A DNA stretch of 48,547 nucleotides, taken from NCBI GenBank assembly GCA_937899905.1, contig CALCCF010000021.1:1-48547 (forward strand), written 5' to 3'. Source of the DNA: an uncultured Phycisphaeraceae bacterium. GTDB lineage: Bacteria; Planctomycetota; Phycisphaerae; Phycisphaerales; UBA1924. Position numbers and translations under genes: made by a program. Positions 11,356 to 37,100 of the stretch are shown one piece after another (positions within the stretch are counted from its first letter, which is position 1; every line of letters begins with the position of its first letter). Below the pieces are notes generated by a model that saw only the letters and a list, made by a program, of their open reading frames with translations, had not been told where the DNA came from and did no database searches.

Positions 11356-11433
11356 GGGCCCAATGCAACGACGCCACGAGATGCCATCTCGCGGCGTCGG
11401 AAGGTGCAGCAGCGTTCTTCTGACCTTGGGCCC
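11356..11433. terminator. Large inverted repeat between convergent genes
   Basis: A strong inner hairpin (11369-11383 with 11385-11399, one mismatch) is nested inside an outer inverted repeat, GGGCCCAA at 11356-11363 and TTGGGCCC at 11426-11433, which touches the stop codon of the minus-strand gene. There is no T-run on either strand, so intrinsic termination is uncertain. It may block read-through between converging genes. Confidence 0.45.
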
Positions 11434-12533
11434 TAGCAGCCAGCGTCGAACTCGTTCTGGAAGGCGAGGAGATCGAACAGTGTCAGGCGGGTGTCGCCGT
11501 CGAAGTCGGCGCAGAAACTGCCGTCATCAAACGCGTTTTGGAAGGCAAGGAAGTCGAAGATGGTCAACTCACCGTCGCCGTCGAAGTCGGCGCGGCAGTC
11601 GCCGTAGCTGCACGGCCGCTGGCCCAGCTTCAACGCGGCCCCGCCCGATCCGAAGGGCGAGTCCAGAACGGTGATCTGCACACGGTAGAGTCCGGGGTCT
11701 AAGACCGTGGCGCCGCTCGAGAAGCTTCGGCTGGCGAACGCGTCGTCGTAGTCGGTGGTAAATTCGCCGTCACGAGGTGGGCTCGTGTTGAAGGAGGCCA
11801 CCTGCGAGGCGCCGCGGAAGACTCGGACATTGAAGCGGTCTCCCGAGGCGAAGGCGTCCGTCACCTGCAGCAGGCCGCAATTGGTGCCAACGTTGATCGT
11901 GTCGAAGTAGATGTCGCCCTCGTCGCCGAAGCTGAACGGTCGCCAGGGCAGGCACTCGGTCGCTACCGGAGCCGAGGAGAACTCGCCGACGGCGAATCCG
12001 CTCGCGTTTCCGTCGGTGTTGACCACGCGGATCTCGGTGATGTGCCCGCCGGCGGGGGCGCTGAAGCCGAAGCCCTGGGCGCCTTCGAAGCCCTCGACAT
12101 CGGTCACGAAATTCGAGGACCGTCCCGTGGAGTCGAAGCCGCTCACCTCAAAGCGGAACTCCCCGAAGAAGGAGGGCTCGACATAGAGGATGAACGCTCC
12201 GACCTCGCCGTCATCGAAGTGCAGGCGAACGCTGTCCGTATCAGTGCCGTACACCGGACCGGCGTAGCCGTGGCTCCATGTTAACCAGCCATCTCCGATG
12301 CGGTGCAGGGTCATAGTGCGTGAGAAGTCGACGGTGCGAAAGCTGCCGACGAACGCGGAACGGACATCGGTGCCCGAAGCACGCACGTCCCATCCGTCCT
12401 GCATGGTGTAGTCGTGCAGGGTTGTGGGTGGGGCATCGGTGCCCAGCCAGCTGCTCATGACCTGGGCATGAGCGGCGGTGGAAGCGAGAACGGCAACAGA
12501 GGCTGCGATACAAGTACGAAAACTACGATTCAC
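11433..12533 (-). CDS. Secreted protein with GC-type dockerin tail (tandem copy 1)
   Basis: A 366-residue exported protein. A signal peptide (about 1-26, ending AAHA-QV) is followed by a beta-rich domain to about residue 190 (RIGDGWLTWSHGYAGPVYG, EVGAFILYVEP, GFGFSAPAGGHITEIRVVN). A second beta domain, about 195-305, contains LQVTDAFASGDRFNVRVF. The final 52 residues (315-366) hold two Ca-loop repeats, DFDGDGELTIFD and DFDGDTRLTLFD, each followed by a leucine/phenylalanine helix, and end FDAGC. This matches the tail NCBI calls GC-type dockerin. Start GTG 12533 has AGGAG 7 nt upstream. It is colinear over its whole length with the next gene, so the pair arose by tandem duplication. Ligand or substrate unknown. 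Confidence 0.88.
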   Translation of the reverse strand: MNRSFRTCIAASVAVLASTAAHAQVMSSWLGTDAPPTTLHDYTMQDGWDVRASGTDVRSAFVGSFRTVDFSRTMTLHRIGDGWLTWSHGYAGPVYGTDTDSVRLHFDDGEVGAFILYVEPSFFGEFRFEVSGFDSTGRSSNFVTDVEGFEGAQGFGFSAPAGGHITEIRVVNTDGNASGFAVGEFSSAPVATECLPWRPFSFGDEGDIYFDTINVGTNCGLLQVTDAFASGDRFNVRVFRGASQVASFNTSPPRDGEFTTDYDDAFASRSFSSGATVLDPGLYRVQITVLDSPFGSGGAALKLGQRPCSYGDCRADFDGDGELTIFDFLAFQNAFDDGSFCADFDGDTRLTLFDLLAFQNEFDAGC

Positions 12534-12774
12534 GGCGAGTCTCCTAACGAAATGGGGTGCATTCCTCCCGGATGTCAGTCGCGGCCCTTGGCGCGAATGG
12601 CCCATCCGGCGGTGTTGTGATACATCCAAAGCGACATGCCGCTTGGGCACTCACGCACATCTTGCTCGCTGAAAGAAAAAAGCGGGACTTCCTTCGCCCA
12701 CGACTCGCCGGTTGCGTGGTCCGGGATCTCCGAACTGGCTGGCAGATGCACTCGCGATTGACCGTGTACAACGT

Positions 12775-12813
12775 AAAACGCCCGCCGCGATCCGTACACG
12801 ATCGCGGCGGGCG
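12775..12813 (-). terminator. Rho-independent terminator after tandem copy 2
   Basis: A perfect 14-bp inverted repeat (12779-12792 with 12800-12813, 7-nt loop), followed on the minus strand by TTTT. It lies 28 bp past the stop of the 12841-13950 gene, so the two tandem copies are separate transcription units. The rest of the 307-bp gap (12534-12840) holds no gene. It should carry the promoter for copy 1, but no clear -35/-10 pair could be picked. Confidence 0.9.
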
Positions 12814-12840
12814 GCATTGGGAAGGAAAGACTGGTTTCGA

Positions 12841-13950
12841 TCAGCAGCCGGCGTCGAACTCGTTCTGGAAGAACAGGAAGTCGAACAGGGTCAGGTTGCC
12901 GTCACCGTCGAAGTCGGCACACAGATTGCCCTGACCAAAGGCGTTCTGGAAGGCAAGGAAGTCGAAGATGGTTAGCGAGCCGTCGCCGTCGAAGTCGGCC
13001 CGGCAGGCGCCGAAGCTGCACCGTGTGCGATCCAGGCGGAACGCCGCGCCGCCGGTGCCGAATGGCGACTCGATCACCGTGATCTCCAGGCGGTAGCGAC
13101 CCGGATGGAGTTGCGTAGCGCCGCTAGAGAAGACGCGACTGGCGAACGCAGCATCGTAATCGGCGCCGAGGGAGCCGCCATCCCGCGGGACGCTGGTGTT
13201 GAATGCGGCGACGACCTCGGTGCCACGGAGAACCCGGACGCGGAAGCGATCGCCCGACAAGAACGCGTCGGTGACCTTCAGCGTGCCGCAGTTGACGCCG
13301 ACAGTGATGGACTCGGTGATCACGTCACCAACATCACCGAACGTGAATCGCTGCCAGGGCAGGCAACCGTTATCGACGCTGGCGCTCAGGAACTCACCGA
13401 CGGCGAAGCCACCTGCGCTGCCATCGGTGTTCACGACGCGCACCGAGGTGATGTGGCCGCCCTCGGGGGCGCTGAAGCCGAAGCCGATGGCACCCGAGTC
13501 GCCCGTGATGTTGGTGTTGATCGACACCGACGAGCCGCCCGCATCGCGACCGGTCACCTCAAAGTTGAAATCAGAGAAGGTATTGGGCTCAACGTAGAGG
13601 ATGAAAGCACCAACCTCGCCTGGGTCGAAGCTCAGCGTCACATCGTCCTCGCCCTGGGTGGAGTACACCGGGCCGGTGTAGCCGTGGCTCCACGTGGCCC
13701 AGCCGTCGCCGATGCGACGGAGGCTCATCGGGATACTGAAATCTACGTCGCGGGCGCCACCGATATCGGCCGAGGTCACCTCGGTGAACGTGGGGCGATC
13801 ATCGCTGCCGGCGACCATCGTGTAGCCATCGAGCTCCGACGGCGGGGCGGCGGTGCCCAGGTTCGTGCCGGTCACCTGGGCGTGGCTCGCGGCCGTGACG
13901 GCGAGCAGGCCGGCGGCACCAAGAGCGAGCGTGTTCATCGATCGAAGCAT
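12841..13950 (-). CDS. Secreted protein with GC-type dockerin tail (tandem copy 2)
   Basis: A 369-residue exported protein with the same order of parts as its neighbour: signal peptide (about 1-25, ending ASHA-QV), a beta domain (RIGDGWATWSHGYTGPVYS, EVGAFILYVEP, GFGFSAPEGGHITSVRVVN), a second beta domain (LKVTDAFLSGDRFRVRVLRG), and a 52-residue tail (318-369) with loops DFDGDGSLTIFD and DFDGDGNLTLFD, ending FDAGC. Most differences from copy 1 lie just after the signal peptide (residues 28-65), the likely variable face. Start ATG 13950 has AGGAG 7 nt upstream. A terminator follows at 12775-12813. The 209 bp upstream contain an AT-rich patch near 14070-14098 that may hold its promoter. Confidence 0.88.
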   Translation of the reverse strand: MLRSMNTLALGAAGLLAVTAASHAQVTGTNLGTAAPPSELDGYTMVAGSDDRPTFTEVTSADIGGARDVDFSIPMSLRRIGDGWATWSHGYTGPVYSTQGEDDVTLSFDPGEVGAFILYVEPNTFSDFNFEVTGRDAGGSSVSINTNITGDSGAIGFGFSAPEGGHITSVRVVNTDGSAGGFAVGEFLSASVDNGCLPWQRFTFGDVGDVITESITVGVNCGTLKVTDAFLSGDRFRVRVLRGTEVVAAFNTSVPRDGGSLGADYDAAFASRVFSSGATQLHPGRYRLEITVIESPFGTGGAAFRLDRTRCSFGACRADFDGDGSLTIFDFLAFQNAFGQGNLCADFDGDGNLTLFDFLFFQNEFDAGC

Positions 13951-14159
13951 GTTCTATCTCCTTCGCTTGGGGGTTGGTTGCGTTTGTCGCGATGCGGCTG
14001 ACGCATCGGGCTGTGCGAGTGCCGTTGTGGCTCCCGACAGGACCGGAGCGAAGGTGATGACGATCGATCACGCGCATTCTCGTAAAAATGACAAAACTCT
14101 TCGGATGCCGTAAACGCGACACCGAGTTCCAGCGGTCGGACGGGGTGGTGGGAGCTTGT

Positions 14160-15173
14160 CTAGCTCAGCACGCCGTGGCGGCGGAGCGACCCCGTGAGAA
14201 TCTCGCGGGCCGACATGTCGCTGGGTACCAGCATGTGGCCGATGCCCCGGGCGCTGGCTAGGCGGGCCAAACGCTCGTTGTGCGCTCCGAGCCGCTTTCG
14301 ATACTGCGCGATGAGCGTGGGCGTGATGGTGACCTCGGCCGTCCGCCCGCTCTCGACATCGGTCAGCATGACATCGCCTAGCAGCCCGGCGTCGACTTCG
14401 GTCGAGGGATCGAGTTCGCCGGGCGCGAGCACCTGGACCAGGATCGAGTCAAAGCCGCCGCCTTGAGCGAAGGCCATGGCGTTGAGCGCGGGCGTCAGGT
14501 CTTCTTCGGTCAGGAAGTCGCTCAGCACCACGAGCACGCCCTTGCCGACGCGGGCCCGAGAGAGGCGTAGCAACGCGGGCACAAGCTCGGGCCGGTTCGT
14601 CGAGACCTCGCCGGGCATCGGTAACGCTTGCTGATACACGAACTCAAGCAAGCGATTGACGCCCGACCGGCCGCGCACCGGTGGCATCCGCAGCAGCGGT
14701 GGGCGCCCCGGCACGCCAAAGGCCCAGAGGCTGACGCGGTCCTGATTGCTCAGGCCGACGTAGGCCACGGCGATGGCCAGCCGGCGGGCGAGGTCGAGCT
14801 TCGGCGGGCGGCCCGCCTCCATCGAACGCGAGCAATCGATCGCCACATGGAGCGCAAGATCTTCCTCCTCAAGAAACAGCTTGAGGAAGAGCTTCTCGAG
14901 TCGGGCGTAAACGTTCCAGTCGATGTGGCGCAGGTCATCGCCGCGGACGTACTCGCGGAAGTCGTCGAACTCGACGCTCTGGCCACGCTTCTTGGACCGA
15001 CGCTCGCCGGGCAGCTTGCCGGCGAAGATCTTCCGGGAGCGGAGCCGCATCCTCCCGAGTACCTCGACAAGGTCGGTACCCAGAGCTTCCTCTAGAGACT
15101 GCGGCGTGGTCTGTCGGCCGGGCGCGTGGAGCACACCGCGATGATACGGCCGAGCGTTGCAACAATCGGCCAT
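14160..15173 (-). CDS. DUF58 / VWA-like protein
   Basis: A 337-residue cytoplasmic protein of the DUF58 family, the usual partner of MoxR ATPases. The family motif YVRGDDLRHIDWNVYAR is at residues 75-91. A von Willebrand A-like fold follows, with MIDAS residues AIDCSRSM (111-118). LVVLSDFLTEEDL is a later strand-loop of the same fold. ATG 15173 has AGGAAG about 9 nt upstream on the minus strand. A GTG at 15134 (324 residues) is the alternative and would avoid overlapping the divergent cls start at 15172. It has no neighbouring moxR; the only one in the window is at 6899. Confidence 0.88.
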   Translation of the reverse strand: MADCCNARPYHRGVLHAPGRQTTPQSLEEALGTDLVEVLGRMRLRSRKIFAGKLPGERRSKKRGQSVEFDDFREYVRGDDLRHIDWNVYARLEKLFLKLFLEEEDLALHVAIDCSRSMEAGRPPKLDLARRLAIAVAYVGLSNQDRVSLWAFGVPGRPPLLRMPPVRGRSGVNRLLEFVYQQALPMPGEVSTNRPELVPALLRLSRARVGKGVLVVLSDFLTEEDLTPALNAMAFAQGGGFDSILVQVLAPGELDPSTEVDAGLLGDVMLTDVESGRTAEVTITPTLIAQYRKRLGAHNERLARLASARGIGHMLVPSDMSAREILTGSLRRHGVLS

Positions 15174-16683
15174 GGATGCGGTCTTCCTGATGTTGTCGCA
15201 GGTGGAGCCCTCGGTCGACCCCCAGGAACAGCACGAGTCGTTCTGGGCCGTCTGGCTTCCGGTGGGATACCTCTTATTGGAGTGGGCGATCCGTCTCACG
15301 CTCGCGCCCATCATCATCCGCAAGCACAGCGCGGGCGAAGCGGCCGCGTGGCTCGCACTGACGCTGTTCCAGCCGATCCCTGGGCTGCTCCTCTACGGCT
15401 GCTTCGGCCGCCAATTGCTTGGTCGGCGGCGGGTTCGTGCCAACATGCGCGCCGCTGAGCTCGTCGAGACTCCCGAACGGCTGGCAGCGCTCGAGAAGCA
15501 CGCCCCTGAGGAAAACGAGATCGACGCTGTACACCTCGACCTCTTCCGCCTCGCCGGGACGGTCGAGGGCACACGCACGCTTAGCGGGAATCTCTGCGAC
15601 ATCGTCGACAGCGACGGCTTCATCGATCGACTGATCGATGACATTGATCGGGCCGAGCGGCACGTCCACCTGCTTACGTACATCTACCGGGATGATGCAA
15701 CAGGCCAACGCGTGGCCGAGGCGCTTGGTCGAGCGGTCGAGCGGGGCGTCGCGTGCCGAGTGCTCGCCGACGGGTCGGGCTCGGCTGGGTTCTTCTCAAC
15801 GCTCGCGCCGAAGATGCGTAGGTCGGGCGTCGAGGTGCGCGATGCGCTGCCCAGTCGCTTCTTCCGCCGCACGCTCGCGCGCATCGATGTTCGCAATCAC
15901 CGCAAGCTGGCGGTGATCGACGGCGCGCTCGCGTACGCGGGCAGCCAGAACATCTGCGACACCGACTATGGCCAGCATCGGTACGGATCGTGGATCGACC
16001 TAACCGCGAGGCTGACCGGCCCGATGGCCATGCAGATGCAGATGCTCTTCTTTGAGGATTGGGTTGCCGAGGCCGGCCAGCTGCCCGAGAGCCCGAGCGA
16101 TCAAGACCTCTTCCCACACCCGGCCGACGCCGGCAGCATGATCGCGCACGCGATCCCCAGCGGGCCGGGCCGCCGACTCGAAGCGTTCCGCGACATCATC
16201 CTCAGCGCGATCACCGAGGCCAACGAGCGCATCGTGATGGTTACGCCGTACTTCATCCCCGATCAGACGACGCAGCTTGCGCTCGTGCTGCGGGCGCGAG
16301 CCGGCGTGCGTGTGGACCTGATCGTGCCGGAGAAGACGAACTCGTTCCTCGTCAACGCCGCCGCAAAGAGCGCCTTTGCCGAACTGCTCGATGCCGGAGC
16401 GACAGTCCACCTCCACACAGGCGGCCTCCTCCATGTCAAGGCGATGACAATCGACGATTCGATCTCGGTGTTCGGCTCGGGCAACTTCGACCGCAGGAGC
16501 TTCAGGCTCAACTACGAGATCAACTTGCTCACGCACGGGACAGACTCGACGATCGCGCTCCGGGATCGTCTCGAGGCGTACCTGGGCGACTGCCGGCCCC
16601 TGGGCAAGTCTGAACTCGATGGCCGTCCCTGGATCCAGAAGCTGGCCGACGATGCCGCAAAACTCATTTCGCCGCTGCTCTAG
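15172..16683 (+). CDS. cls: Cardiolipin synthase (phospholipase D family)
   Basis: A 503-residue membrane-bound enzyme that joins two phosphatidylglycerols to cardiolipin and glycerol. Two N-terminal spans (about 24-45 and 58-82) precede a linker and two phospholipase D catalytic motifs: HRKLAVID starting at residue 243 and HVKAMTID at 421, each followed by the expected GSQN or GSGNFDRRS. Length and order match bacterial ClsA. No clear ribosome site precedes ATG 15172; ATG 15190 is a possible alternative. The start overlaps that of the divergent DUF58 gene. Confidence 0.93.
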   Translation: MDAVFLMLSQVEPSVDPQEQHESFWAVWLPVGYLLLEWAIRLTLAPIIIRKHSAGEAAAWLALTLFQPIPGLLLYGCFGRQLLGRRRVRANMRAAELVETPERLAALEKHAPEENEIDAVHLDLFRLAGTVEGTRTLSGNLCDIVDSDGFIDRLIDDIDRAERHVHLLTYIYRDDATGQRVAEALGRAVERGVACRVLADGSGSAGFFSTLAPKMRRSGVEVRDALPSRFFRRTLARIDVRNHRKLAVIDGALAYAGSQNICDTDYGQHRYGSWIDLTARLTGPMAMQMQMLFFEDWVAEAGQLPESPSDQDLFPHPADAGSMIAHAIPSGPGRRLEAFRDIILSAITEANERIVMVTPYFIPDQTTQLALVLRARAGVRVDLIVPEKTNSFLVNAAAKSAFAELLDAGATVHLHTGGLLHVKAMTIDDSISVFGSGNFDRRSFRLNYEINLLTHGTDSTIALRDRLEAYLGDCRPLGKSELDGRPWIQKLADDAAKLISPLL

Positions 16684-16728
16684 TGGGCCAACGAATACAC
16701 TGTGGGCATGTCCGTGAAGGAGAATGCC

Positions 16729-18504
16729 GTGAAGCGAACCCTCGTTTGGCCCTGGATTCTCGTGCTGGCCATGATGCCAGTGTTGTCAGCGACGAGCGCG
16801 ATGGCCCAGGATGCCGTGGACTTGTCGTACCGGGTCGCCGAGGGCCACGCCTATCGGTTCGAGGACCTTTCCTCGAGCAGCCTGAATATGCAGATCAATG
16901 GGGGCGGCCAGCCGATCGAGGCCCAGCAGTCGACGACGGGCACGATGCGTGGAACCGCCCGTGTCCTCGAAGTCCGCGACGGCGTGCCCAGCGTCGTGCT
17001 GCTCACCTTCGATGAGGACCTCGGCCAAGAGTCGACCTCGTTCGGCCAGGCGCAGCCGAAGACGCTGTTCATGCTTTCTGGCCGCACGGTGCGAGTGACC
17101 GTCGATGAGGCTGGTGAAGTCCAGATCGAGCCAGCCGACAGGTTTGGTCCTTTGCCCGAGATTCCCGACTCCGATCGCGGCACGGTCGAGAAGCTCGTCG
17201 TGCCCGACCCAAACTTCCCGCCTGCCGAGCCTGTGCAGGTCGGCGCTCGCTGGACGGCCAAGCTCGATCAGGGCGACGAGGGCAGCGAACTGGAGATGGA
17301 CTTCGAAGTGCTGCGCTTTACCGACATCGATGGTGTGCGCGTCGCCGAGCTGAGCGCCACCGGTTCGCTCAGCCAGAACGACGGCGGCAATCGATTCTCC
17401 GCCAACGTGTCGGGCACCATCCTCGTCGATGTCACCACCGGCTTGCCGATCCGCTCCGAGCTTCGCGGTCCATCAACGATGAATGCCACGATCACGCAGG
17501 GCGGACAGACGTACTCCATCACGGGCAGCGGCACCATCTCGCAAGTATCAACGCAGACGCCGCTCACCGAAGAAGACGCGCCGGCTGGAGATACAGCGAC
17601 GCCAGACGAGCCCCAGCCCGGCAGTGGCGCCGACGCGCCGCCGGCAATCGAGGGCTGGTCGACCTACACCGAGCCGCTCAGCGGAGCCCGCTTCCAGCAT
17701 CCCGGGCAATGGCGTGTCCAGTCTGCGCCACAGGGTCTGATACTGATCCCCGACGGCCATGCCCCCGGGTCCGAGTTGATCATGGCCAGCGGCATGGAAG
17801 CTGGCGGTGTGACCGATGCCACCGATCCTCGGGTCGCAGAGCAACTGGACGCCACCGTCCGGGCGATGGCGCCATTGATGACCCGGGCGGGGCAGCCCGA
17901 GACGCTCGGGGTCTTTGATGGCAGCGGCGCGGTGTACCGCTATACCGGCACGATGCCCGACGGCCGATCCGCGCAGTGCGTCTCGCTCGTTCGCATCGGC
18001 GATGGGCTGGCGATGGGCTTTTCGATCCTCGCCTCACCCGACCTCGTAAGCCGCCGTGTTCCAACGCTCGAGCGCATGCTCGCCACGCTCTATATCCCCA
18101 AGCCAACAACTGTCGAGCCCGGTGCGGGCGCACAAACCGACGACCGCAGGCTCATCGGCATGTTCGGCGGCGAGGCCATCGCCTCCGGCGGAGACGCGGG
18201 CGTGTACGTCAACACCCAGCTCGTCTACGCGCTCGGCTCCGATGGCGTCGTGCTCTACGGTGCCCGCTCGGCGATGAGCGCATCACAACGGGACTACACC
18301 GGTGCGCTGGAGTGGACCGCGACCGGCGAGACGGCCGGCAGCGTGCAGCGCGGGCGCTGGAGCGCTGCCAGCGGCATGCTCAGCGTCGTCTGGGATGCGG
18401 GCGGGCGATCCGTGTTCGCGTACGGCTTTGAGCCCGATGGGAGCCTCGTGCTGCGCGACCCACGCACACGCGAGCTGATCAACTTCTTCCAGCGCATCCG
18501 CTAA
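16729..18504 (+). CDS. Exported protein of unknown function (DUF6263-like N-terminal part)
   Basis: A 591-residue exported protein. GTG 16729 is chosen because AGGAG lies 6 nt upstream and the protein then begins with a standard signal peptide (MKRTLVWPWILVLAMMPV, cleavage near AMA-QD). The N-terminal half (to about 280) is a beta-rich region, YRFEDLSSSSLNMQ then ARVLEVRDGVPSVVL, with the feel of planctomycete DUF6263 proteins; that name is tentative. A Pro/Glu-rich linker (about 280-305) leads to a region like lipoprotein-type 'WSTYTEPLSGARFQHPGQWR' domains (about 310-460). A C-terminal beta domain ends at DPRTRELINFFQRIR. It is followed after 27 nt by the 18532 gene. Confidence 0.72.
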   Translation: MKRTLVWPWILVLAMMPVLSATSAMAQDAVDLSYRVAEGHAYRFEDLSSSSLNMQINGGGQPIEAQQSTTGTMRGTARVLEVRDGVPSVVLLTFDEDLGQESTSFGQAQPKTLFMLSGRTVRVTVDEAGEVQIEPADRFGPLPEIPDSDRGTVEKLVVPDPNFPPAEPVQVGARWTAKLDQGDEGSELEMDFEVLRFTDIDGVRVAELSATGSLSQNDGGNRFSANVSGTILVDVTTGLPIRSELRGPSTMNATITQGGQTYSITGSGTISQVSTQTPLTEEDAPAGDTATPDEPQPGSGADAPPAIEGWSTYTEPLSGARFQHPGQWRVQSAPQGLILIPDGHAPGSELIMASGMEAGGVTDATDPRVAEQLDATVRAMAPLMTRAGQPETLGVFDGSGAVYRYTGTMPDGRSAQCVSLVRIGDGLAMGFSILASPDLVSRRVPTLERMLATLYIPKPTTVEPGAGAQTDDRRLIGMFGGEAIASGGDAGVYVNTQLVYALGSDGVVLYGARSAMSASQRDYTGALEWTATGETAGSVQRGRWSAASGMLSVVWDAGGRSVFAYGFEPDGSLVLRDPRTRELINFFQRIR

Positions 18505-18531
18505 GCCAACCTCTTCGAGGAGTACGAAGGC

Positions 18532-19488
18532 ATGGCATTACCACGAATCTTGATCGCCGCTGCACTGAGTGTCGGGCTCGCGATGGCGCAGAATGCGACA
18601 GCCCAGGACGGTCTCCTCTCTGGCCCAACTGTTGAGCAGGTGCCGACCCTGCTGAATTACGGTCTCGATGGCCGACTCGAGCCGGTTGAGGGCCGGCCGG
18701 AGCTCGCCGCGGCTGAACTGCTGGCAGCGCAGGGCGGCATCGACTCCGAAGTGTCCGAACGCGTACGCGCGGTAGCTACGGCCCGGCGAGAGGCGATGCG
18801 CATGCTCATGGTCGACGAGCTCGACGCCGTCCGCGTGATCAGCGATCTCGTTGTGGCTGGTGAAGCCGACGCCGCGCGCGACGAGATGCGGGCAATGTGG
18901 CAGCGCTTCGAGCCCGGCCAGCCGCATGCGCCCCTGCTCGACGACCTCGCCGAAGCGCTCGGGCCCGAGCACGCCGATGGACTGCGCGCCATGGTCGACG
19001 AGTACTGGGCCGCGTTGCTCGCACAGCGCATGGGCGAACGCCTCGAACGCCGCCTCGGCGAAGCAATGGCCGGCCAGATGGACGGCCAGGCAAATGATCG
19101 GATGGGCAACGAGGTGATCGACCAGATGGGTGGCATGCCCGGCGACCGCGTCGATCCGCAATTGGTGATGTCCAGCGACGATCCAGTGATATCCGCGGCG
19201 CGGCAGCGCCTGGCGTTCCAGCTCTTCCAGCAAGAAGTCCGCGAGGCGTACGACCAGTCGTTGTCACGCTATCGCGAGCTGCTCGAGAGCATCAACACCG
19301 CGATCGAGACGAGCGATGCCCAGCGAGCGTCGATCCGCGAGGTCGTGCTCGAGCACATCAAGGACACGAGGCTCGAAGCCACGCCCGAGCAGCGGCGGGC
19401 CACGATGGTCCGCATCTACCGCGAGCTCGACGAGGCCCAGCGTGAGCAGCTGTATGCGCTGCTGCTTCGCCAAGTTGTCCCGGATTAG
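18532..19488 (+). CDS. Exported helical protein of unknown function, paralogue of 7985-8884
   Basis: A 318-residue exported protein: signal peptide (about 1-24, ending ATA-QD), then SGPTV, a leucine/alanine-rich segment (GRPELAAAELLAAQ) and long charged helices. The middle carries a Met/Gly/Gln-rich stretch (about 180-210, MAGQMDGQANDRMGNEV) that may be a flexible linker. The C-terminal segment (EVREAYDQSLSRYRELLES, then EATPEQRRATMVRIY) lines up with the end of the 7985-8884 protein. No known domain. Start ATG 18532 has GAGGAG about 9 nt upstream. Probably co-transcribed with the preceding gene. Confidence 0.75.
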   Translation: MALPRILIAAALSVGLAMAQNATAQDGLLSGPTVEQVPTLLNYGLDGRLEPVEGRPELAAAELLAAQGGIDSEVSERVRAVATARREAMRMLMVDELDAVRVISDLVVAGEADAARDEMRAMWQRFEPGQPHAPLLDDLAEALGPEHADGLRAMVDEYWAALLAQRMGERLERRLGEAMAGQMDGQANDRMGNEVIDQMGGMPGDRVDPQLVMSSDDPVISAARQRLAFQLFQQEVREAYDQSLSRYRELLESINTAIETSDAQRASIREVVLEHIKDTRLEATPEQRRATMVRIYRELDEAQREQLYALLLRQVVPD

Positions 19489-19522
19489 CCAGAGCCTTGG
19501 ACGTAGTGAGCGAGCGGTTGCC

Positions 19523-20032
19523 CTAGTTGCCCATCTTCTTGTCGGCGATCTTCTGAGCCTGCTTGTCCAGCTTCTTCTGCTCGGCGGCCTTCTTCTTGGC
19601 TTCGCGATGCTGGGTATACAAGACGATCGGTGCGAGCAAGAGCACCGCGCCGACAAGCGCCGCGAGCAGGCTCGAGTAGGTCACATCGAAGGATCCCAGA
19701 TCGAAGTCCAGGCCGAGCTGTGCAAACAGCACGCCGCCGATGGCAGCACCGATCAGGCCGATGAGCATGTTGAGCCCGGCCCCGTACCCCTTCATCTTGC
19801 CCGAGAAGATCCGCCCAACGATCGCGCCAGCAAGCGCCCCAACGACCACGAAAGCCAGCACGTCGCCAACGGTCAACTCGCTGGCGGCCTGCGCGATCGT
19901 GCGGGCCGCCTCGCCCGCAGCCTCAACGGTCTGCTGTGTGGTTGACGCGGTCTCGCTGTCGGATTCCTGTCGGCCTATGACAACGGAACTAGCGGATAGG
20001 ACGCCAACGCCTGCTGCAATCCTGATGATCAT
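19523..20032 (-). CDS. GlsB/YeaQ/YmgE-type membrane protein
   Basis: A 169-residue inner-membrane protein. After an N-terminal hydrophobic segment and a Gln/Ala/Thr-rich stretch (22-52) comes the transglycosylase-associated (GlsB/YeaQ) fold at about 55-135: DVLAFVVVGALAGAIVGRIF, then a glycine-rich GYGAGLNMLIGLIGAAIGGVLF helix pair. A third span follows near 120-142. The tail is very basic (HREAKKKAAEQKKLDKQAQK). Members are small stress-induced membrane proteins of unknown biochemistry; this one is longer because of the added ends. ATG 20032 has GGGGG 7 nt upstream. Confidence 0.8.
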   Translation of the reverse strand: MIIRIAAGVGVLSASSVVIGRQESDSETASTTQQTVEAAGEAARTIAQAASELTVGDVLAFVVVGALAGAIVGRIFSGKMKGYGAGLNMLIGLIGAAIGGVLFAQLGLDFDLGSFDVTYSSLLAALVGAVLLLAPIVLYTQHREAKKKAAEQKKLDKQAQKIADKKMGN

Positions 20033-20146
20033 GGATGTACCCCCGTGAATGGGCGTTCCCGGCAGCGCCGGCAACGCAAGTTCATGATACGTCCTCGTCC
20101 TGCCCCGCACATAACCCGTGCTCCGACAGAGGCGTACAAATACGGC

Positions 20147-20884
20147 ATGGCCAAGGACACCATTCGCGACTGGGATGCCGACGCGGCCGAACGGGATGGC
20201 ATCCCGCCCGAGCGACACTTGGGTCGCTACGCGGTAGGCGGACTCGCCGGCGCGTCGATCGCGTTGATCATCGTCGCGCTGCACGTGTGGTTCTTCCACA
20301 GAACGCTCCTCGCGACCGGAGCAAACCACGTCGTCATGAGTGGACTCGAGGTCGTGGTCACCCCGGAAGACCTGCAGATCATCGACGAGGAGTTTGATCG
20401 AGCCGCCGCGTGGTACGTTGACGGCCAACTGGAACTGCCTTCACTCGTCCGGGCGATGCAAGTTGTGATGGCCGCCGATATTGTGGCCTACGCCGCGACC
20501 CAGACCCTGCGCGACTCGATGTCTGCGTGGCCCGGGGTCGACGCCGCGGAGGTTGACCTCCTCTCGCGATGGGTGGGGGGCGGAATCGTGGCCAGGAGTG
20601 TCGCGCCTAAGCAACTTGCCGAAGCACTTGGGTCAGCTTGCCGTCGGAGCGGGCCTGGCGAGCCACTCGACGCCGATGAGTCTTGGAGCCAGAGCTTCCT
20701 GCTATACGGCGATAGGCTGCAACTGACGAAGAACCTCAGCAACTCCGAAGCCCGCGAAGCGATGGACGACTTGCGAGCGTTCCTCGAAGCCCAGGCTTTT
20801 GATGCGTCGCCGCTCCGTGGAGACCTGCGCTCACACCTTCGCGAGAGACTCGACGGCGAGGTTGGTTGGCGGCTAGATCCGTAG
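20147..20884 (+). CDS. Single-span membrane protein, unknown function
   Basis: A 245-residue protein with one membrane span at about residues 25-48 (YAVGGLAGASIALIIVALHV) and a C-terminal outer or cytoplasmic domain of about 190 residues with no recognised motif. The start ATG 20147 is chosen from MAKDTIRDWDADAAERDG; the open frame before it is basic and not protein-like, but no strong ribosome site is visible, so the start is uncertain. Divergent from the GlsB-type gene. Confidence 0.6.
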   Translation: MAKDTIRDWDADAAERDGIPPERHLGRYAVGGLAGASIALIIVALHVWFFHRTLLATGANHVVMSGLEVVVTPEDLQIIDEEFDRAAAWYVDGQLELPSLVRAMQVVMAADIVAYAATQTLRDSMSAWPGVDAAEVDLLSRWVGGGIVARSVAPKQLAEALGSACRRSGPGEPLDADESWSQSFLLYGDRLQLTKNLSNSEAREAMDDLRAFLEAQAFDASPLRGDLRSHLRERLDGEVGWRLDP

Positions 20885-20946
20885 CGGCGTACCCCCGCGT
20901 TCAGACACAGCGTTCGCCCCGGTGTGTGCCCGCGTTCTCGAATGAA

Positions 20947-20978
20947 CAAGAAAAGAGGGGCGGCACGTAGCCACCCCC
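20947..20978 (-). terminator. Rho-independent terminator after the spondin-domain gene
   Basis: On the minus strand, GGGGTGGC (20978-20971) and GCCGCCCC (20965-20958) pair around a 5-nt loop, with one G-U pair, followed by TCTTTTCTT. It lies 53 bp past the stop at 21031. Confidence 0.8.
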
Positions 20979-21030
20979 CGCTGGTCAGCAAGCTGAAGTG
21001 TGTTCTCGCTGCGGATCGACGTCCTGTGGA

Positions 21031-21849
21031 CTAGCAACCCGTGTCGAACGCGTTCTGGAACGCGAGGAAGTCGAATAGCGTGAGGCTGCCATCACCGTCG
21101 AGATCGGCCAGCGGGCTACCCGCGTCGAACGCGTTCTGGTAGGCCAGGAAGTCGAAGATGCTCAGATCGCCATCGCCATCGAAGTCGGCCGTGCACTCAA
21201 CGTCGATCAATTCAATGGTGTAGGTGCCCAGCGCCGGCGTGCCGGTGAAGGGGAACTCGCTGGCGATCCGCGCGATCGGCTCCTGCGGCTGCGTGTCGAA
21301 GTTGGGCGAGCGATAGCTCGAGCCCGAGTCGGTGCCGGCGTCGTACGGCCATAGCTCGTGGTCGATGCGCTGGATCCACCCATTGCCATCGCGCAGCGAC
21401 AGGCTCTGCGTGCCAACGAACCAGTCCGGGCTCGGCGCGATCATGGTGACCATCGTGAGCAGCGGGTGGTCGCTCCCGGTCTCAAACTCGATCGTCACGC
21501 GACCCGGCGACACGCGCATCGGATCGCCGCGAAGGCTCTGGCCGATCACGCCGGTGGCGGCCAACGCCGCGATCTCGTTCAGCAGCGGCGTCGGCGATCC
21601 GATCTCGGCCATGACCTCGATGCCGTTGCTGGCCAGCCCGCCGACCTCCCAGAGCGTCGCATCGGCGTTGTGCGTCGCGCCAACGAGCGGCGAGTAGTGG
21701 GGATCAGGCGGGAAGGACGCCGGGTGCGTCGCGGCCGACCACACCGAGTCGAACGTCACGCGATAGGTCGCGGTGGACTGGGCCAGCGCGGGCCCGGCAA
21801 CAGCCAGGGCGAGGGGCACGAGGCAGCGGTGAAGGGATGGGGTCGGCAT
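21031..21849 (-). CDS. Secreted spondin-domain protein with GC-type dockerin tail
   Basis: A 272-residue exported protein. A signal peptide (about 1-24, ending ALA-QS) leads to a spondin_N domain (about 25-215), recognisable from YRVTFDSVWSAATHP, FPPDPHYSPLVGATHN, LWEVGGLASNGIEVMAE and FVGTQSLSLRDGNGWI. Such domains are known from F-spondin and many bacterial surface proteins, where they are thought to aid adhesion. The last 52 residues (221-272) are the same paired Ca-loop tail as in the 11433 and 12841 genes, loops DFDGDGDLSIFD and DLDGDGSLTLFD, ending FDTGC. It lacks the cysteine at tail position 27 seen in the other two. ATG 21849 is preferred because the signal peptide begins there; a TTG lies upstream at 21882. 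Confidence 0.9.
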   Translation of the reverse strand: MPTPSLHRCLVPLALAVAGPALAQSTATYRVTFDSVWSAATHPASFPPDPHYSPLVGATHNADATLWEVGGLASNGIEVMAEIGSPTPLLNEIAALAATGVIGQSLRGDPMRVSPGRVTIEFETGSDHPLLTMVTMIAPSPDWFVGTQSLSLRDGNGWIQRIDHELWPYDAGTDSGSSYRSPNFDTQPQEPIARIASEFPFTGTPALGTYTIELIDVECTADFDGDGDLSIFDFLAYQNAFDAGSPLADLDGDGSLTLFDFLAFQNAFDTGC

Positions 21850-30735: not shown

Positions 30736-31133
30736 ATCAAAACCAGAACATGGTTTCCCCCGTTGAGCAAGAATCGGGTCGCTTCCGTGCCCTGCTCCCT
30801 GCAACCCCGACCGCTCAGGAGGCGAAGAGGATTGTGCGGAGTTGCGCGGGTCTGGCAAATGGGCTGGACAAGTGGGGGTGCCGCTTGGTATCCTGACCCG
30901 TGCGGACTGCGTGGCAGGCGGGAGCCGCCGACAGGCGGTATCCTTCGCCGACCGAATGCGTTCACGGTCGAGCGGAGGCCCTGCATCCCGCTCCACGCCC
31001 AGCGTGTTGGTGACACCGTCATCGACCTAAGACAGGGCTCCGGCCCCACGACCCCGTGAGGGAGCCCCCAAGATCCCCAGAGGATCACACCCCAGTAGCC
31101 GGCATGACGCCGATCGATACTTGGAGCAAGAGC
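30736..31133 (+). other. 398-bp leader region of the giant surface-protein gene
   Basis: No gene is seen. The segment contains the candidate promoter at 30865-30894, a small 6-bp inverted repeat near 30741-30757, and a stem (GGGCTCC 31035-31041 with GGAGCCC 31061-31067) within the probable untranslated leader. An in-frame ATG at 31104 lacks a ribosome site and is not preferred. Confidence 0.5.
30865..30894 (+). promoter_or_regulatory. Candidate sigma-70-type promoter for the giant gene
   Basis: TGGACA (30865-30870) and TATCCT (30889-30894), 18 bp apart, match five and four of six consensus bases. Transcription starting near 30901 would give a leader of about 230 nt before ATG 31134. Confidence 0.5.
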
Positions 31134-34100
31134 ATGAGTGGCCTACGTCCCGGTTCGTCTCGCCACGCCAAGGCCGTCCGCGGTCTGGGCCGACTCCTTT
31201 CGCTGTACCGCTCGGCGGGCCGCGCCGAGCACCGCGAGGACGGTGTCCACTCGACGGGCCAGTCGATGGAGCAGCTCGAGGCTCGCATCCTGCTGGGTGG
31301 TGATCATCCAAGCTTCGATCTGCCGCTCGATGCGATGTCCGGTACGGAGATCGTGATCGATGGCGTGACCGGCGAGGGCGATGAGGACGGCATCATCGAA
31401 GATGTCACGCCGGATCTTTCCGACGACCTCTTCCGCTTCGTCGCGCCTCAGGACGACTTTGTGACCGTTTGGGCCGACACCATCAATGGCGGCGGCTCCA
31501 CCCTCGACTCACGCGTCGAGGTGTACGGCATCGACGGGACGCTGATCTCGGCCGGCTCGAGCCAGGGCCAGCTCACCGAGGGGTTCTTCGACGACGGCTG
31601 GACGAGCTTCATCGCCGAGGCGGGCGAGACCTACTTCGTTGTCGTTCGCAGCGATGTGGACAACGCGGGCCAGCTGAGCACCGGCTCGTACACCATCCGT
31701 GTCGACGCCATCACCAACACCGACCTGGTGATCGAGACGGACCCGATGGCCGTGCCTCCGGCTCGCTTCGGTGCGGGTGAGGCGGCTGGCAACATCACGC
31801 TGCCCGGCGACGACATCGTGTACCGTGTCGAGACCGGCAGCGACGCCGCGTTCGACTCGCTGGCGAGCTTCTACGCCGCGCTCCCAAGCTTCCCGCCCTC
31901 GGACTTCGACCCGAGGCTTGATGTCTACGACGAGCAGGGCCAGTTCATCACCGGCGACAGCCTCACCGGCCGCCTGCAGACCGCCTTCTCCGTGGTCGAA
32001 AGCTCGGCCGATGCCACGTTCTTCGTGCGTGTGCGCGGCGACGAGTTCACTCCCGGTGGTGCTCAGACGACGGGCCAGTTCATCCTCCGCGCCGAGGCGG
32101 CGGCGACGCAGATCGACATCGATCCGGTCAGCCGGCGCGGCGAGATCTTCGATGGCATCGCCGACGGGTTCGACACGCGCCTCTATCGATTTACGACGCA
32201 GGGTGGCGGCCTGACCTTTGCCGGCGCGTTCCCCGCGGGCCTGATCCCGCTGCTAGATCCCGCGGTGCGGATGTACGACCAGAATACCGATCTCATCGGC
32301 TTCAGCGATCTTCCGATCGGGGCGGATCTGCAGATCCAGCTCGAGACCGACACCGAGTACTTCATCGTCATCGAGAACTTCGACACGTTCAACGGCGGCA
32401 CGTACAACGTGTTCATCGAGAGCAACGCGACGTTCATCCCAACGCAGGACGTTGACGACCACGTCTCCCGCCCCGAAGGCGATGATCCCGACGGGAACGA
32501 GCTGGACTTCGACCCCGCCGCCGGCTTCGGCGACCCGACCCAATTCGACTTCATCCGTGGTACGTTCGAGGAGGCCACGCCGCTGCGCTGGAGCGACCCG
32601 TTCCTGTACACGCGCACGTTCGTCGATCCGAATGGCATCTTCGATGATGTCGTGAACCCGGTCTCCGATCGCAGTTACGTGCAGGAAGCCGTCGGCACCG
32701 GTCGCATCCACAGCTTCGGCGACACGGATCTCTTCCAGTTCACGGTGCCGGTCGACATGCTCGGCGGCTACGAGGGCGACAACGACGATGTCGGCGACGC
32801 CCTGTTTGCCGGCGGCCAGGGCCAGTTCATCATCAAGGGCACGGATAACGACACCGGCGCCCCGATCACCCGCGACTTCCTGGGCATCTGGGATGCGCAG
32901 GACTGGTGGCCTGTCCGAGCGGGCGTTGACATGACCATCTTGGCGATGGAGTCGTGGACGTACGACCCCAATCGCGAAGTTGGTGGCACCGCCCTGATCA
33001 TCGGCGGTGAGTTCCAGTTTGCCGACTTCCAGACGGCTCCGTTCATCGCGGCGTACTGGTACGACGATGATCCGACGGTGCAGGAGTACGTCCTGACGCC
33101 GCTGCCGTTCAACCCGGGCGGCGACGTGCGGTCGTTGCACGTCTGGGATGCGAGCGACGCCGACGACGAGGAGGCCCAGCTCTTTATTGGCGGCGACTTT
33201 GGGCTCGGCGTGTATGGCAGCATCGCGGAGGGAGATCCGATCTTCGCCGGGAGCTACGTGCAGCTGCTTGACGGCACCGGCGGCTCCGTGCGGGCGCTGG
33301 ACAACATCGACTTCGTCGACCCGGAGATGGGCGACGAGACGCCCGACACGCTCTACGTGGGCAGCGACGGCGGCACGCTCCGCTCGATCTTCTACGACGA
33401 GATGGCCGAGGCCCTGGTCCTCGGCGGCACGTTCATTGTGGGCGGTGTCGGAGATGTCAACGCCCTGCAGACGCACCTCATCGCAGATCCCTACTCCATG
33501 GAGGACGAGCTCGTCCCCGCGCTGGCGGTCGGCGGCGAGTTCAACGCCCTCGGCGGCGTGGGCTCGAGCAACATCGCCCTGCTCCAGTTCAACCCAGGGG
33601 GCATGGGCGGTCTCGGCGCCTTCGAGGTCAACAACATGGGCGGCGGCACGGATGGGCCCGTGCTCGCGCTGGACGTCTGGGATCGGGATGCCGACGGCGA
33701 CGCGGCCATCGAAGAACTGGTCGTCGGCGGCGACTTCTCGACTGGTGGCGGTGGTGCGCTCAACAACATCGGCAGCTTCACCACCGGCTTTGGCTGGGCC
33801 GCCCTTGGTACGGCCCTCGGCGCTGGCGGCGGCCCTCCCGGCACCAACGGCCCCGTGCACACGATCAACGTCTTCGTCGATGGCGAGTTTGGCGTTGGCG
33901 TTGCCCCGTTCGACACGAACCCGGTGGTGTACATCGGCGGCGACTTCACGATCGCCGATGGCCTCCCGGCCGCCCGCCTCGCGCAGCTTACGTACGACCC
34001 GTTCATCCTCGATTGGACTTGGACGCCGATGGGCTTGGGCTCCACGGACACCGTGTTTGCGCTCGAAAATTTCAATGACGAGATCCCGACACAGTGGGAC

Positions 34101-37100
34101 CGCGACGATCGGCGCGCGGCGAGCTTGCGCCTGACAGTCAGTGGCGACTTCCTGCCTGGCGTGGATACAGAGATCCGGATTTACGATTCGAGCTTCCGAA
34201 TCGTCTACACGAACGACATCCTCTTCCCGCCTGGACCACCAACCGATCCGTCGGGCTCGCTGGATCCGTCGCTGCTAGATCCCAATGCGATCGATGAGAG
34301 CCGTGTCATCGAGATCGGTGACGATCAAGATGTTCAGTTCTTTGCTGGCGAGGTCTATTACCTTGAGATCAGTTCCGTTGGCGGCAACGGCCGTTATACG
34401 TTCTCGATGATCTCCGACGCGCTCCCGCCGGACACCGACGGCGACCAGGTCTTCGACGATGTCATCGGCAGCTATGCGGAGCCGATCGGCATGGATCTGG
34501 ACCGGGCGGAGTTCGACGATCCGCGGATCTCCCGTATTGGTCTCAGCTCGACGACGTTCGGCGACGGTCGCAACTTCACGGCCTTGCCCCAGTCGGCGTA
34601 CCAGGTGCGCAACTTCGATGTCACCCCGAGCGGCTGGGCGGTTTCTCAGGCCCAGGAACTCGGCCTCATCGAGGACATCACCGACTTCGATATCTACACC
34701 TTCCGCGCTTCGGACACCGGCACGACCGAGATCCGCATCGCGACGTTGCAACTCTTGGACCAGTTTGTTGAGTTCCGCGACGACCTCAACACGCCGGCGT
34801 CGCCGGATGAGACGACGACGATCAGCAAGATCTATGACAGCCCCTTGGACGCCAAGATCCGCGTCTTTAACAACGACCTGCAGCTCATCGCCTCGAACGA
34901 TGACAACCCGGGCTTCTCCGGCACACGCTCCGAGCAGCCCTTCGGCTCGTTGGACCTCGTGGGCGACACGCTGTACGGCCAGGGTGACACCGAGATCGAC
35001 GGCCGCATCTTCAGCGATCGCGACCCACGAGTGGTGTTCCCGACGGTCAACACCGAACAGTACTTCATCGTGGTCGAGAGTGGCCAGCTGGACACCTTCC
35101 TGGCCGATCCCGATCTGGTCGACTGGCGGCGTGCTACGGGTTCGTACGAGCTCATGATCAACAGCTCGCCGAACCTGCTTGGTGTTGACGATCACGACGA
35201 CTTCAGCCAGCTGTTCGCTGAGTTCTACACGTTCGACACACCGATGACGATCGATGAGAACGGCGACGGCGAGATCCGCGGCGAGATCCGGACCCGTGCG
35301 GGCGGTGTCGAGGATAACGATGCGTTCTTCACCTATTCCGTCGGGACCGGCCTGATCAACATCACCGTTGCGGCGGACAACCCCTCGGAGTTCCGCCCGC
35401 GCGTGACCATCTTTGATACGGATGGCACCCTGCGTGTGAACCCCGTGTCGGCCTCGAGCACCTCGCCGGCCGAGATCCAGTTCTTCGCCACCAAGGGCGA
35501 GCAGTACGTCATCCGTGTCGATGCCAACGTCGGCGAGCAGGGTGCGTACACCGTGACGATCGATGGCGCGCCGTCGATCGATGACGTCGCCGACCGCCAC
35601 CAACTCGCCGCTGCCCAGAACATCGAGATCCTCGACTTCCTGGGCCAGGGTGAATTCTCCGGCGTGATCGACTCGCCGGGCGATACCGACATCTTCAGGT
35701 TCACCACGCCGGGCTACGGCGACGTGACCATCGACGTCGAGTCCACCAGCTTCGGCTTCGACCCGGTCGTTCGGGTGTTCGAGGTCAGCGAGGATCCGGC
35801 CGGCAACCCGATCTTGCTGACGATCGGCTTCAACGACAACTCCGGTCCCGGCACGGTCAACGCGCAGACACAGTTCCCGGTCACCGGGGCCGATCGCACG
35901 TCCGGCCTGACCTCCAACACGTACAACGAGTACTACGTGGTGGTCTTCGGTGCGGACAGCGAAGCGAGTTCGGGCTCGTACGACCTGACGATCACCGCCG
36001 ACCCGACCGACGACCATCCCGACGCCGGCGAGTTCGCGTTCGCCTCGCCGTTGGTCATCGAGCCGCTCACTGGCCTCGGCGAGCGTCTGGGCCTGATCGA
36101 AGTGACTGGCGACACCGACCTGTTCACCTTTAATGCGCCGGCGGGCGGCGTTGCGGTGCTGTCGGCGGTCAGCAATGAGCTGAGCACGCTCCGGCCGACC
36201 ATCCAGGTCTTCGACCAGGACTTCAACCCGGTCATCAACCTCAGCACGAGCACCGACGACCCGGTGACGGGCCCCGATGGCGCGTTCTCGGCGGCGTCGT
36301 ACCGATTCAGTGTAGTCCGCGGCCAGCAGTACTTTGTGCTGGTGGGCGGTGCAACGGGTACGGTGACGACCGACTCTGGCGCGTACAGCCTGTCGGCGAC
36401 CGCTCCGGCGGCCGACCCCGTGGCCAATGAGACCGAGTTTACCATCGCCCAGCAGATCATCCTGTCCACCGAAACGGGCGCTGGCCAGTTCAACGATGCG
36501 ATCGATGTCCCCGGCGATACCGATCTGTACTTCTTCGACACCATCGCCGACGCATCGACGATCCCGCAGCAGCACACGGTCCGTGTGGACTCCACGGGCC
36601 AGATGATCACGCCGATCCTTACCGTGTTCGATGCCGGCACCAGTGTGCTCGACACGATCACGGACAATGGCGTGGGCGATCTGGATCCGACCGCGGGCGT
36701 GATCGAGTACGACATCGTCGCCAGCGGCCTGCCGGGCGAGCGCTTCTTCCTGCAGGTTGAGCTCGATGGTGGCAGCATGTTCCCGACTGGGGCCTACGTC
36801 ATCAGCGTTGAGGGCCCGATCCCCGACACCATCCCGACGCCGGGCGATGATCACGCCAACCGAGGCCAGTTCAGCCTCGCGACCGTGATCGGCCTGGACG
36901 GCCGGACCGGCGATGCCGAGATCACCGGTCGCATCGAGCCTTCGGCCGATAGCGATCTGTTCCGGATCGACCCGGCCGCGACGGGTCAGACGTTCGTCCA
37001 GGTGGTGACGCCCTCTGGCGCGCTCCTCGATGTCGACGTCACGATCTTCGAGCAGCTGACCCCGGGTTCCGAGCCGGTCCAGATCGGTCGAGATACCACC

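Follow-up and report, generated by a model that had tools for sequence, protein, structure and literature searches.

An uncultured Phycisphaeraceae bacterium and its relatives carry, on many exported proteins, a short dockerin-like tail. At the sequence level this module is marked by its high copy number, its paired end cysteines, a genome-specific dialect, alternation with PEP-CTERM-like ends among related bodies and the lack of a recognisable cohesin. Taken as a whole, the best explanation, and a reasonably likely one, is a disulfide-closed calcium dockerin that would serve as an exchangeable surface anchor with one receptor per lineage. The dockerin_GC family is already known; searches of open-licence literature turned up no description of the disulfide, the dialects or the anchor swap, and no mention of a "GC-type dockerin", or of dockerins or choice-of-anchor linked with PEP-CTERM.

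Tail-bearing proteins of the window and the genome

The window is a stretch of 48,547 bp and has three tailed reading frames, all on the minus strand. The first (positions 11433–12533) encodes a secreted protein of 366 aa with a signal peptide, a body that matched no known Pfam family in a Pfam scan and was read by eye as beta-rich, and a GC-type dockerin tail of 54 residues running from Cys to Cys (residues 313–366; positions 11436–11597, minus strand). The second (12841–13950) is a paralog of 369 aa with like architecture and a like tail of 54 residues (12844–13005, minus strand). The two proteins are 65% identical over 351 residues, and therefore the three unrelated bodies of the first-pass annotation reduce to two. 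A shorter relative of the 12841 protein, L090, is without the second body region and has a tail of like kind. The third protein (21031–21849; 272 aa) is secreted and had been assigned a spondin_N body, which Pfam Spond_N (E 3.9e-47) and NF038123 confirm; its 54-residue module is at 21034–21195, minus strand.

The three tails score 33.1, 41.8 and 41.9 bits, respectively, against the NCBIfam model NF041540 dockerin_GC ("GC-type dockerin domain-anchored protein"; cut-off 29), which they match at positions 1 to 67. That name carries no mechanism; the paired Cys, the dialects, the N-terminal copies and the anchor swap are added by the present analysis. The translations of all three tails show the two D-x-D-G-D loops, the Asp at position 12 and the Gly-Cys end that had been described. 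The reported tail length of 52 residues holds if the count begins at the Ala that precedes the first loop, but the module is of 54 residues and starts two residues earlier, at a Cys.

A profile search had been proposed for the tail, and it now covers the genome and its relatives. In the genome the module is found at at least 150 places, all above the cut-off, with the best 150 of 237 candidates scored. These include two window tails (12844–13005 and 21034–21195, both recovered in this search). The true copy number exceeds 150, because only 150 of the 237 candidates were scored and the window's weakest tail (11436–11597) is outside this set. The candidates were ranked by a model ending on two Cys, and the set is therefore biased toward tails with both Cys. 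Cohesin-search loci, partial profile matches, 11 tails below 40 bits and one tail cut by the locus end were dropped before the counts. NF041540 is matched by all 56 representative tailed proteins of the genome.

The 153 own-genome tails studied are carried by about 65 body families, which may be an overcount because short or cut bodies were counted as singletons. A heuristic finds a signal-peptide-like start in 132 of 139 complete reading frames. Families of tailed proteins include peroxidase, subtilase, PETase-like, Spond_N and FG-GAP, and no glycoside hydrolase catalytic family, the client type of cellulosomes, is among the 25 Pfam families shown of 28 (56 representatives of the 153 tails). 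Five of the 153 tails lie at the N-terminus, and in these both Cys are retained.

Among 61 relatives, 46 have a dockerin_GC match, 42 of them above the cut-off; of 246 genomes sampled from the whole phylum, 15 carry a match and seven are above the cut-off, five of these seven belonging to the same genus.

Probable dockerin fold and the search for a cohesin partner

The GC tail shares with type I dockerins (PF00404) a pair of calcium loops, 12 residues long and with a helix after each, and two similar halves. Window translations and column counts show that acidic residues at loop positions 1, 3, 5 and 12 are conserved, and the two halves of own-genome tails are alike (0.70 identity). An AF2 model of the 21034–21195 module with six preceding residues predicts two helices (mean pLDDT 90.6). 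Dockerins make up the seven top Foldseek hits, with E values above 0.001; all 18 rows shown by VIA-align are dockerin, cohesin-dockerin or cellulosome entries, with Z at most 5.3; and a profile search against PDB sequences finds the dockerin chain 5lxv_B (E 6.5e-6). A phmmer search with a single tail returned mostly calmodulin-like EF-hands, and the profile search did better. Against PF00404 itself the window tails score 12.7, 18.3 and 15.4 bits, below the gathering cut-off of 22.9, and elsewhere in the genome 21 of the 22 listed PF00404 matches pass. Type I dockerins of cellulosomes differ in having a Tyr-Pro clasp where the GC tail has a Cys at both ends, and no cohesin was found for the GC tail.

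The probable dockerin fold, by profile and model, speaks for ordinary cohesin-dockerin pairing, in which a scaffoldin with cohesins would be present but too diverged for the profiles used. There is a precedent in the cohesin/dockerin "planctosome" proposed for freshwater Nemodlikiaceae (Andrei et al., 2019; PMC6461901), where non-cellulosomal dockerins of freshwater Planctomycetes are suggested to keep exported proteins attached to the surface. However, the planctosome model, as outlined in that source, relies on recognisable cohesins. Pfam Cohesin (PF00963) matches nothing in the seven genus genomes at E ≤ 0.1, and it is above cut-off in only four of the 61 genomes; these four carry at least 81 (G014), 3, 0 and 1 tails. 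Sub-threshold matches occur in a few further genomes, one of which has 27 tails (G050, E 0.028), and these weak matches speak for the pairing.

A second profile (A3), built from eight cohesins of relatives, three of them from G014 itself, likewise finds none in the seven genus genomes (E ≤ 0.05); among 34 genomes with at least 20 tails it matches only G014. The G014 match has Pro/Thr linkers and comes from a short contig in a fragmented MAG; it may represent contamination. The studied assembly is 95% complete, and a highly diverged cohesin could escape both profiles. Ordinary pairing appears unlikely, although it is the alternative that survives best. In the seven genus genomes, the putative receptor is not a cohesin recognisable by either profile.

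The first-pass annotation had recognised no cohesin-like partner in the window, in agreement with the Pfam scan of 10 window reading frames, which finds no cohesin domain. Its suggestion of a conserved cohesin-like partner that co-occurs with the tail is not supported, in that cohesins are absent from the genus by both profiles and are not co-distributed with tails; the cohesin was rejected as partner on these grounds. An exosortase was also considered as partner and rejected: it is in all 61 genomes, and therefore its presence does not follow the tails. Proteins with PEP-CTERM matches in the same genome were considered as receptor candidates and set aside as well; the 12 ends read, of 15 matches, are ordinary PEP-CTERM-like ends.

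Genome-specific helices and a probable anchor slot

Tails on unrelated proteins of one genome resemble each other, and this is most evident in the helices. Among 15 genomes, mean helix identity is 0.45–0.83 within a genome (non-homologous bodies) vs 0.25–0.39 between genomes, and mean loop identity is 0.43–0.79 vs 0.45–0.58, for tails of at least 45 bits and with between-genome pairs that were unfiltered for homologous bodies and include public relatives sharing the dialect of the studied genome. The dialect is mostly, but not purely, in the two helices, as in most genomes the loops, too, are more alike inside the genome than across genomes. Helix sequence follows the genome and not the body. 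For example, the tail of P0003 is 0.71 identical to 152 other own-genome tails but 0.43 identical to that of its homolog in G020, although the two bodies are 0.51 identical.

The dialects could stem from a founder tail that expanded long ago in each lineage instead of from co-evolution with a receptor. Recent copying or gene conversion of the tail segment among genes is highly doubtful: single pairs reach 95% nucleotide identity and synonymous agreement is slightly above expectation, but the mean same-codon fraction among own-genome tails of 54 residues is 0.665 vs 0.643 expected from codon usage, and median nucleotide identity is 0.75.

The position of the module on related bodies suggests a slot for an anchor. 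Like the GC tail, the PEP-CTERM/exosortase type of end is a terminal tag on many unrelated exported proteins, and it occurs on related body families. PEP-CTERM ends are processed. A hydrophobic stretch and a run of Arg mark the PEP-CTERM-like ends, whereas the GC tail, a folded domain, has no such stretch and can be N-terminal. Of 17 Spond_N matches, seven have a GC dockerin end and eight a PEP-CTERM-like end, while two (L378, L380) have no readable C-terminus in the right frame. Both end types are found within each of three genomes (G000, G004, G005), with the reservation that the PEP-tailed group is distant (21.5–32.2 bits vs a cut-off of 24; the G000 member, 23.4). NxxGxxAF proteins have PEP-CTERM-like ends in PEP-rich genomes and GC dockerins in G000, G004 and G023, where the GC-tailed matches score below the NxxGxxAF cut-off.

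The numbers of the two tags were also considered as a sign of clean replacement. None of the 61 genomes has 20 or more of both, a pattern that follows families; the rank correlation (Spearman −0.22, p 0.09) falls short of significance, and within family f1 it is +0.32. The counts are suggestive only, with exclusion limited to the high end.

Since the helices are genome-specific, synonymous sites are near expectation and related bodies have PEP-CTERM-like ends, the GC tail probably takes the place of the anchor, with a single receptor to bind in each lineage. The earlier proposal of a shared docking or anchoring step is supported in this respect. Perhaps the tail merely folds and shields the C-terminus as a stability cap, with no partner; the lack of a known partner, the conserved residues of the calcium loops and the compact model would fit this. 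Such a cap is improbable, however, as the helices, far more than the loops, are alike within a genome and different between genomes, and the module replaces an anchor tag on related bodies.

Paired end cysteines and a proposed display mechanism

Cys is found at both positions 1 and 54, and Gly at 53, in all 152 own-genome tails of 54 residues. Cysteine is otherwise infrequent, with 0.25% within tails vs 0.88% in bodies. Over 331 tails, both end Cys are present in 309, neither in 14, only the N-terminal one in five and only the C-terminal one in three (Fisher p 4.6e-18, an indicative value because the sequences are related by descent). Thus, in most cases the two end Cys are retained or missing as a pair, and final-Cys loss in most members, named beforehand as evidence against a role in anchoring, is not what the tails show. 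The corresponding counts for families f1 and f2 outside the genus are 129, 13, 4 and 3. A laxer window for the N-terminal Cys gives 311/10/10/5 (p 1e-10), and f2 alone is not significant (p 0.14); these values are likewise indicative. One of the eight tails with a single end Cys is in the studied genome (L135, which ends TGRP). Four f2 tails have a further pair of Cys, placed at the pseudo-symmetric junction. Outside the order, most tails read by eye, apart from the 331, have neither Cys.

The paired keeping and loss of the end Cys, together with the N-terminal copies that keep both, argue for an intramolecular disulfide rather than an enzyme acting on the terminal Cys. A Cys 1–Cys 54 bond probably closes the module. 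In a cellulosomal dockerin, head and tail are joined by a Tyr-5/Pro-66 clasp (PMC4728124).

The enzyme on the final Cys that the first-pass annotation had envisaged would make the tail a C-terminal sorting signal, with the terminal Gly-Cys read and the Cys coupled covalently to the surface. Tail length is constant, Gly-Cys is at the end or one residue before it in 147 of 148 complete C-terminal own-genome tails, and exosortases, which process other C-terminal tags, are present throughout the 61 genomes. But a residue follows the Cys in 113 of the 148 (34 end on Cys and one is without it), N-terminal copies keep the Cys, and Cys 54 mostly goes with Cys 1. In addition, no hydrophobic, transmembrane or basic stretch follows the module, unlike PEP-CTERM-like ends and signals of the PEP-CTERM/LPXTG type. 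Covalent sorting is thus very improbable.

The preferred reading is that of a non-covalent, exchangeable anchor of exported proteins in one Phycisphaerales lineage. Proteins with unrelated bodies would leave the cell via the signal peptide, and their tails would fold in calcium under oxidising conditions as two-loop dockerins. The ends would probably be locked by the Cys 1–Cys 54 disulfide, in place of the weaker cellulosomal head-to-tail clasp. The tails would then plug non-covalently into one shared putative surface receptor. Because that receptor is proposed to differ between lineages, the tails of each genome would have a dialect in common, located mainly in the two helices. The two similar halves suggest that the plug might bind in two orientations. 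A stronger form of the proposal is tentative: well over 100 clients per genome would be displayed by disulfide-closed dockerins on a single non-cohesin receptor, receptor and clients would have changed together between genera, and the role of exosortase/PEP-CTERM tags in sister families would, in this lineage, have been largely taken over.

Disulfide-closed dockerins could make sturdier affinity tags, and the dialects provide ready matched and mismatched pairs for finding the receptor. If the proposal is true, uncultured planctomycetes would sort much of their exported protein by a calcium-dependent plug and a new socket, and dockerins would have a second large realm beyond cellulosomes, with a new receptor to be found.

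The GC-type dockerin module and its paired cysteines

Three minus-strand genes of the window (11433–12533, 12841–13950 and 21031–21849) encode exported proteins with the same C-terminal module, and in a profile search all three tails score above the threshold set for NCBIfam NF041540 (dockerin_GC), a family already named by NCBI. The first-pass annotation was right about the tails, but had called the three proteins unrelated: the 11433 and 12841 products are paralogs (65% identical), and the third has a Spondin_N body. The tail is common to named records of Phycisphaerales, Phycisphaeraceae, Phycisphaerae and other Planctomycetota MAGs; four further named records match the Spond_N body alone. 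The window also has a 2508-aa open frame (31056–38582) with no Pfam match above cut-off.

A model of the tail, built on 24 aligned tails, shows two helices and a mean pLDDT of 90.6. The top Foldseek matches are dockerins, with E-values > 0.001, and the 18 VIA-align rows are all dockerin, cohesin-dockerin or cellulosome entries, although their Z (up to 5.3) would be weak as sole support. The tail profile matches dockerin chain 5lxv_B at E 6.5e-6. Taken together, these make a dockerin fold likely.

The module is 54 residues long with a Cys at each end; the earlier count of 52 residues began at the Ala before loop 1, two residues after the true start at Cys. In the own genome (G000, the uncultured Phycisphaeraceae bacterium), every one of the 152 tails whose length is exactly 54 residues has a Cys at both positions 1 and 54, and Cys is scarce otherwise (0.25% inside tails, 0.88% in bodies). 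However, the NF041540 alignment covers model positions 1–67 in the three window tails, so own-genome tails picked with it are skewed towards having both Cys. The better test of pairing is a wider sample of 331 tails, to which 35 genomes contribute 309 (including the 153 own tails) and public loci the other 22. Here 309 tails have both end Cys, 14 neither, five only the N-terminal and three only the C-terminal one (Fisher p 4.6e-18). Outside the genus, in f1 and f2 (families among the 61 relative genomes), the corresponding counts are 129, 13, 4 and 3, and in f2 alone 14, 8, 4 and 0. If the N-terminal Cys is defined less strictly, the counts for all 331 tails become 311, 10, 10 and 5 (p 1e-10), but in f2 alone pairing is then not significant (p 0.14). 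Score-based choice should leave "neither" rarer than "one"; the stricter definition shows the opposite.

In a cellulosomal dockerin, Tyr-5 stacked on Pro-66 holds head to tail (PMC4728124), whereas in the GC module a disulfide would hold head and tail in the same role. Four f2 tails have an extra Cys pair at the junction of their two halves, which by dockerin pseudo-symmetry would map onto the Cys 1–Cys 54 pair. Tails of two loci (L102 of B31T1B8 and L090 of TGS_PLA1) have extra Cys in calcium loops and helices (ADCD and FLCFQN, for example), as if further disulfides had been added.

Number, clients and position of the tails

The own genome contains at least 150 GC modules, the best 150 of 237 candidates having been scored. 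By single linkage, 153 own tails fall on 65 body families (the largest of 36), a number that may be too high because short or cut bodies enter as singletons. A simple heuristic rule finds a signal-peptide-like start in 132 of 139 complete ORFs. Pfam matches of 56 representatives include animal-type peroxidase, subtilase, FG-GAP, Laminin_G_3, Spond_N, and PETase-like and chlorophyllase-like hydrolases; no glycoside hydrolase catalytic family is among the 25 Pfam families listed out of 28. The NCBIfam "choice-of-anchor" model TIGR05002 matches two of the 56, and NF041518 matches one. The module is seldom met beyond f1 and f2: it passes the cut-off in seven of 246 genomes across the phylum, five of these from the own genus.

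The last Cys is unlikely to serve as a processing site. Among 148 complete C-terminal own tails, 34 stop at it, 113 are one residue longer and one lacks it; Pro is the commonest residue to follow (61 of 152 own ends). Five of the 153 own tails lie directly after the signal peptide, with both Cys kept. Four of these, fully read, belong to related alpha/beta hydrolases that are PETase- or chlorophyllase-like by Pfam (L203, L204, L205 and L206, on contigs C96, C62, C56 and C78), and L146 (C56) is probably another such hydrolase. Other genomes have two near-N-terminal tails (L080, L067).

Exchange with PEP-CTERM-like ends

NxxGxxAF repeat proteins (TIGR05002) were sought in 16 genomes. In six PEP-rich genomes (G040, G041, G044, G049, G053, G057), 10 of the 11 ends read are PEP-CTERM-like; the remaining one (L321) is truncated at the locus edge. 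The proteins of G000, G004 and G023 end in a GC dockerin, but score 31.9, 21.5 and 26 bits, under the family cut-off of 50, and their kinship is therefore weaker evidence. That of G020 has a terminal dockerin without the Cys.

Spond_N has 17 matches in the 61 genomes: seven GC-tailed (G000, G002 three times, G004, G005 and G020; 144–166 bits), eight PEP-CTERM-like (21.5–32.2 bits against a cut-off of 24) and two unreadable; G000, G004 and G005 have both end types. Homologs in other named records (L084–L087) are without the GC tail, and L087 begins with what looks like a lipobox.

At a threshold of 20 copies, none of the 61 genomes has both tags, 34 have GC dockerins only, 10 PEP-CTERM only and 17 neither. 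The rank correlation over all genomes is weak (-0.22, p 0.09), and inside f1 its sign is positive (+0.32), so the distribution follows families.

A dockerin-like loop-helix stretch without the end Cys adjoins a PEP-CTERM-like end in L311 and L329 (G053), L315 (G049) and L330 (G057), as if both anchors were stacked. The seven genus genomes (G000–G006) have three exosortases each and most others one or two; the third is clearly lower scoring (93–110 bits; C82:18117–18866 in G000).

Cohesins and genome dialects

Planctomycete dockerins outside cellulosomes have been proposed before, as a "planctosome" (PMC6461901). The paired end Cys, dialects, N-terminal copies, PEP-CTERM exchange and missing cohesin were not found in the open-licence literature searched.

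None of the seven genus genomes gives a Pfam Cohesin match at E 0.1; matches above the cut-off occur in four of the 61 genomes, of which just one is tail-rich, and a profile from eight relatives' cohesins gave the same outcome. The putative receptor would thus be either a cohesin outside profile reach or something else. In G048, a genome without GC-tail matches, adjacent genes on contig C63 (L068, L077) both carry a cohesin, one in a short protein with a C-terminal transmembrane-like stretch, the other with a C-terminal dockerin-like end; they are apparently a small non-cellulosomal cohesin-dockerin pair. G060 has 25 cohesin-like matches, many in very long open frames (the longest 6882 aa), and one GC-type tail match.

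Tails of 15 genomes with at least four each were compared, within-genome pairs being limited to non-homologous bodies. Mean helix identity is 0.45–0.83 within and 0.25–0.39 between genomes, and mean calcium-loop identity 0.43–0.79 and 0.45–0.58, so the dialect is mostly, not only, in the helices. The helix consensus is LTIFDFLAFQN in the own genome, VNTLDVLAFLNAY in G012, LNFFDVAAYLDLF in G023 and VDLADLNLVLANFG in G032; the halves of each own tail match at 0.70 of positions. The dialects may alternatively go back to a founder tail that multiplied long ago in each lineage. Synonymous codon agreement in own tails (0.665) is little above the 0.643 predicted from codon usage, so the likeness of the tails does not stem mainly from recent copying.

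The window Spond_N tail shares 0.71 identity with the 152 other own tails, against 0.43 with the tail of the homolog in G020 (body identity 0.51), and thus the tail goes with the genome, not the body. Co-evolution with one putative receptor would be the best account of these dialects.
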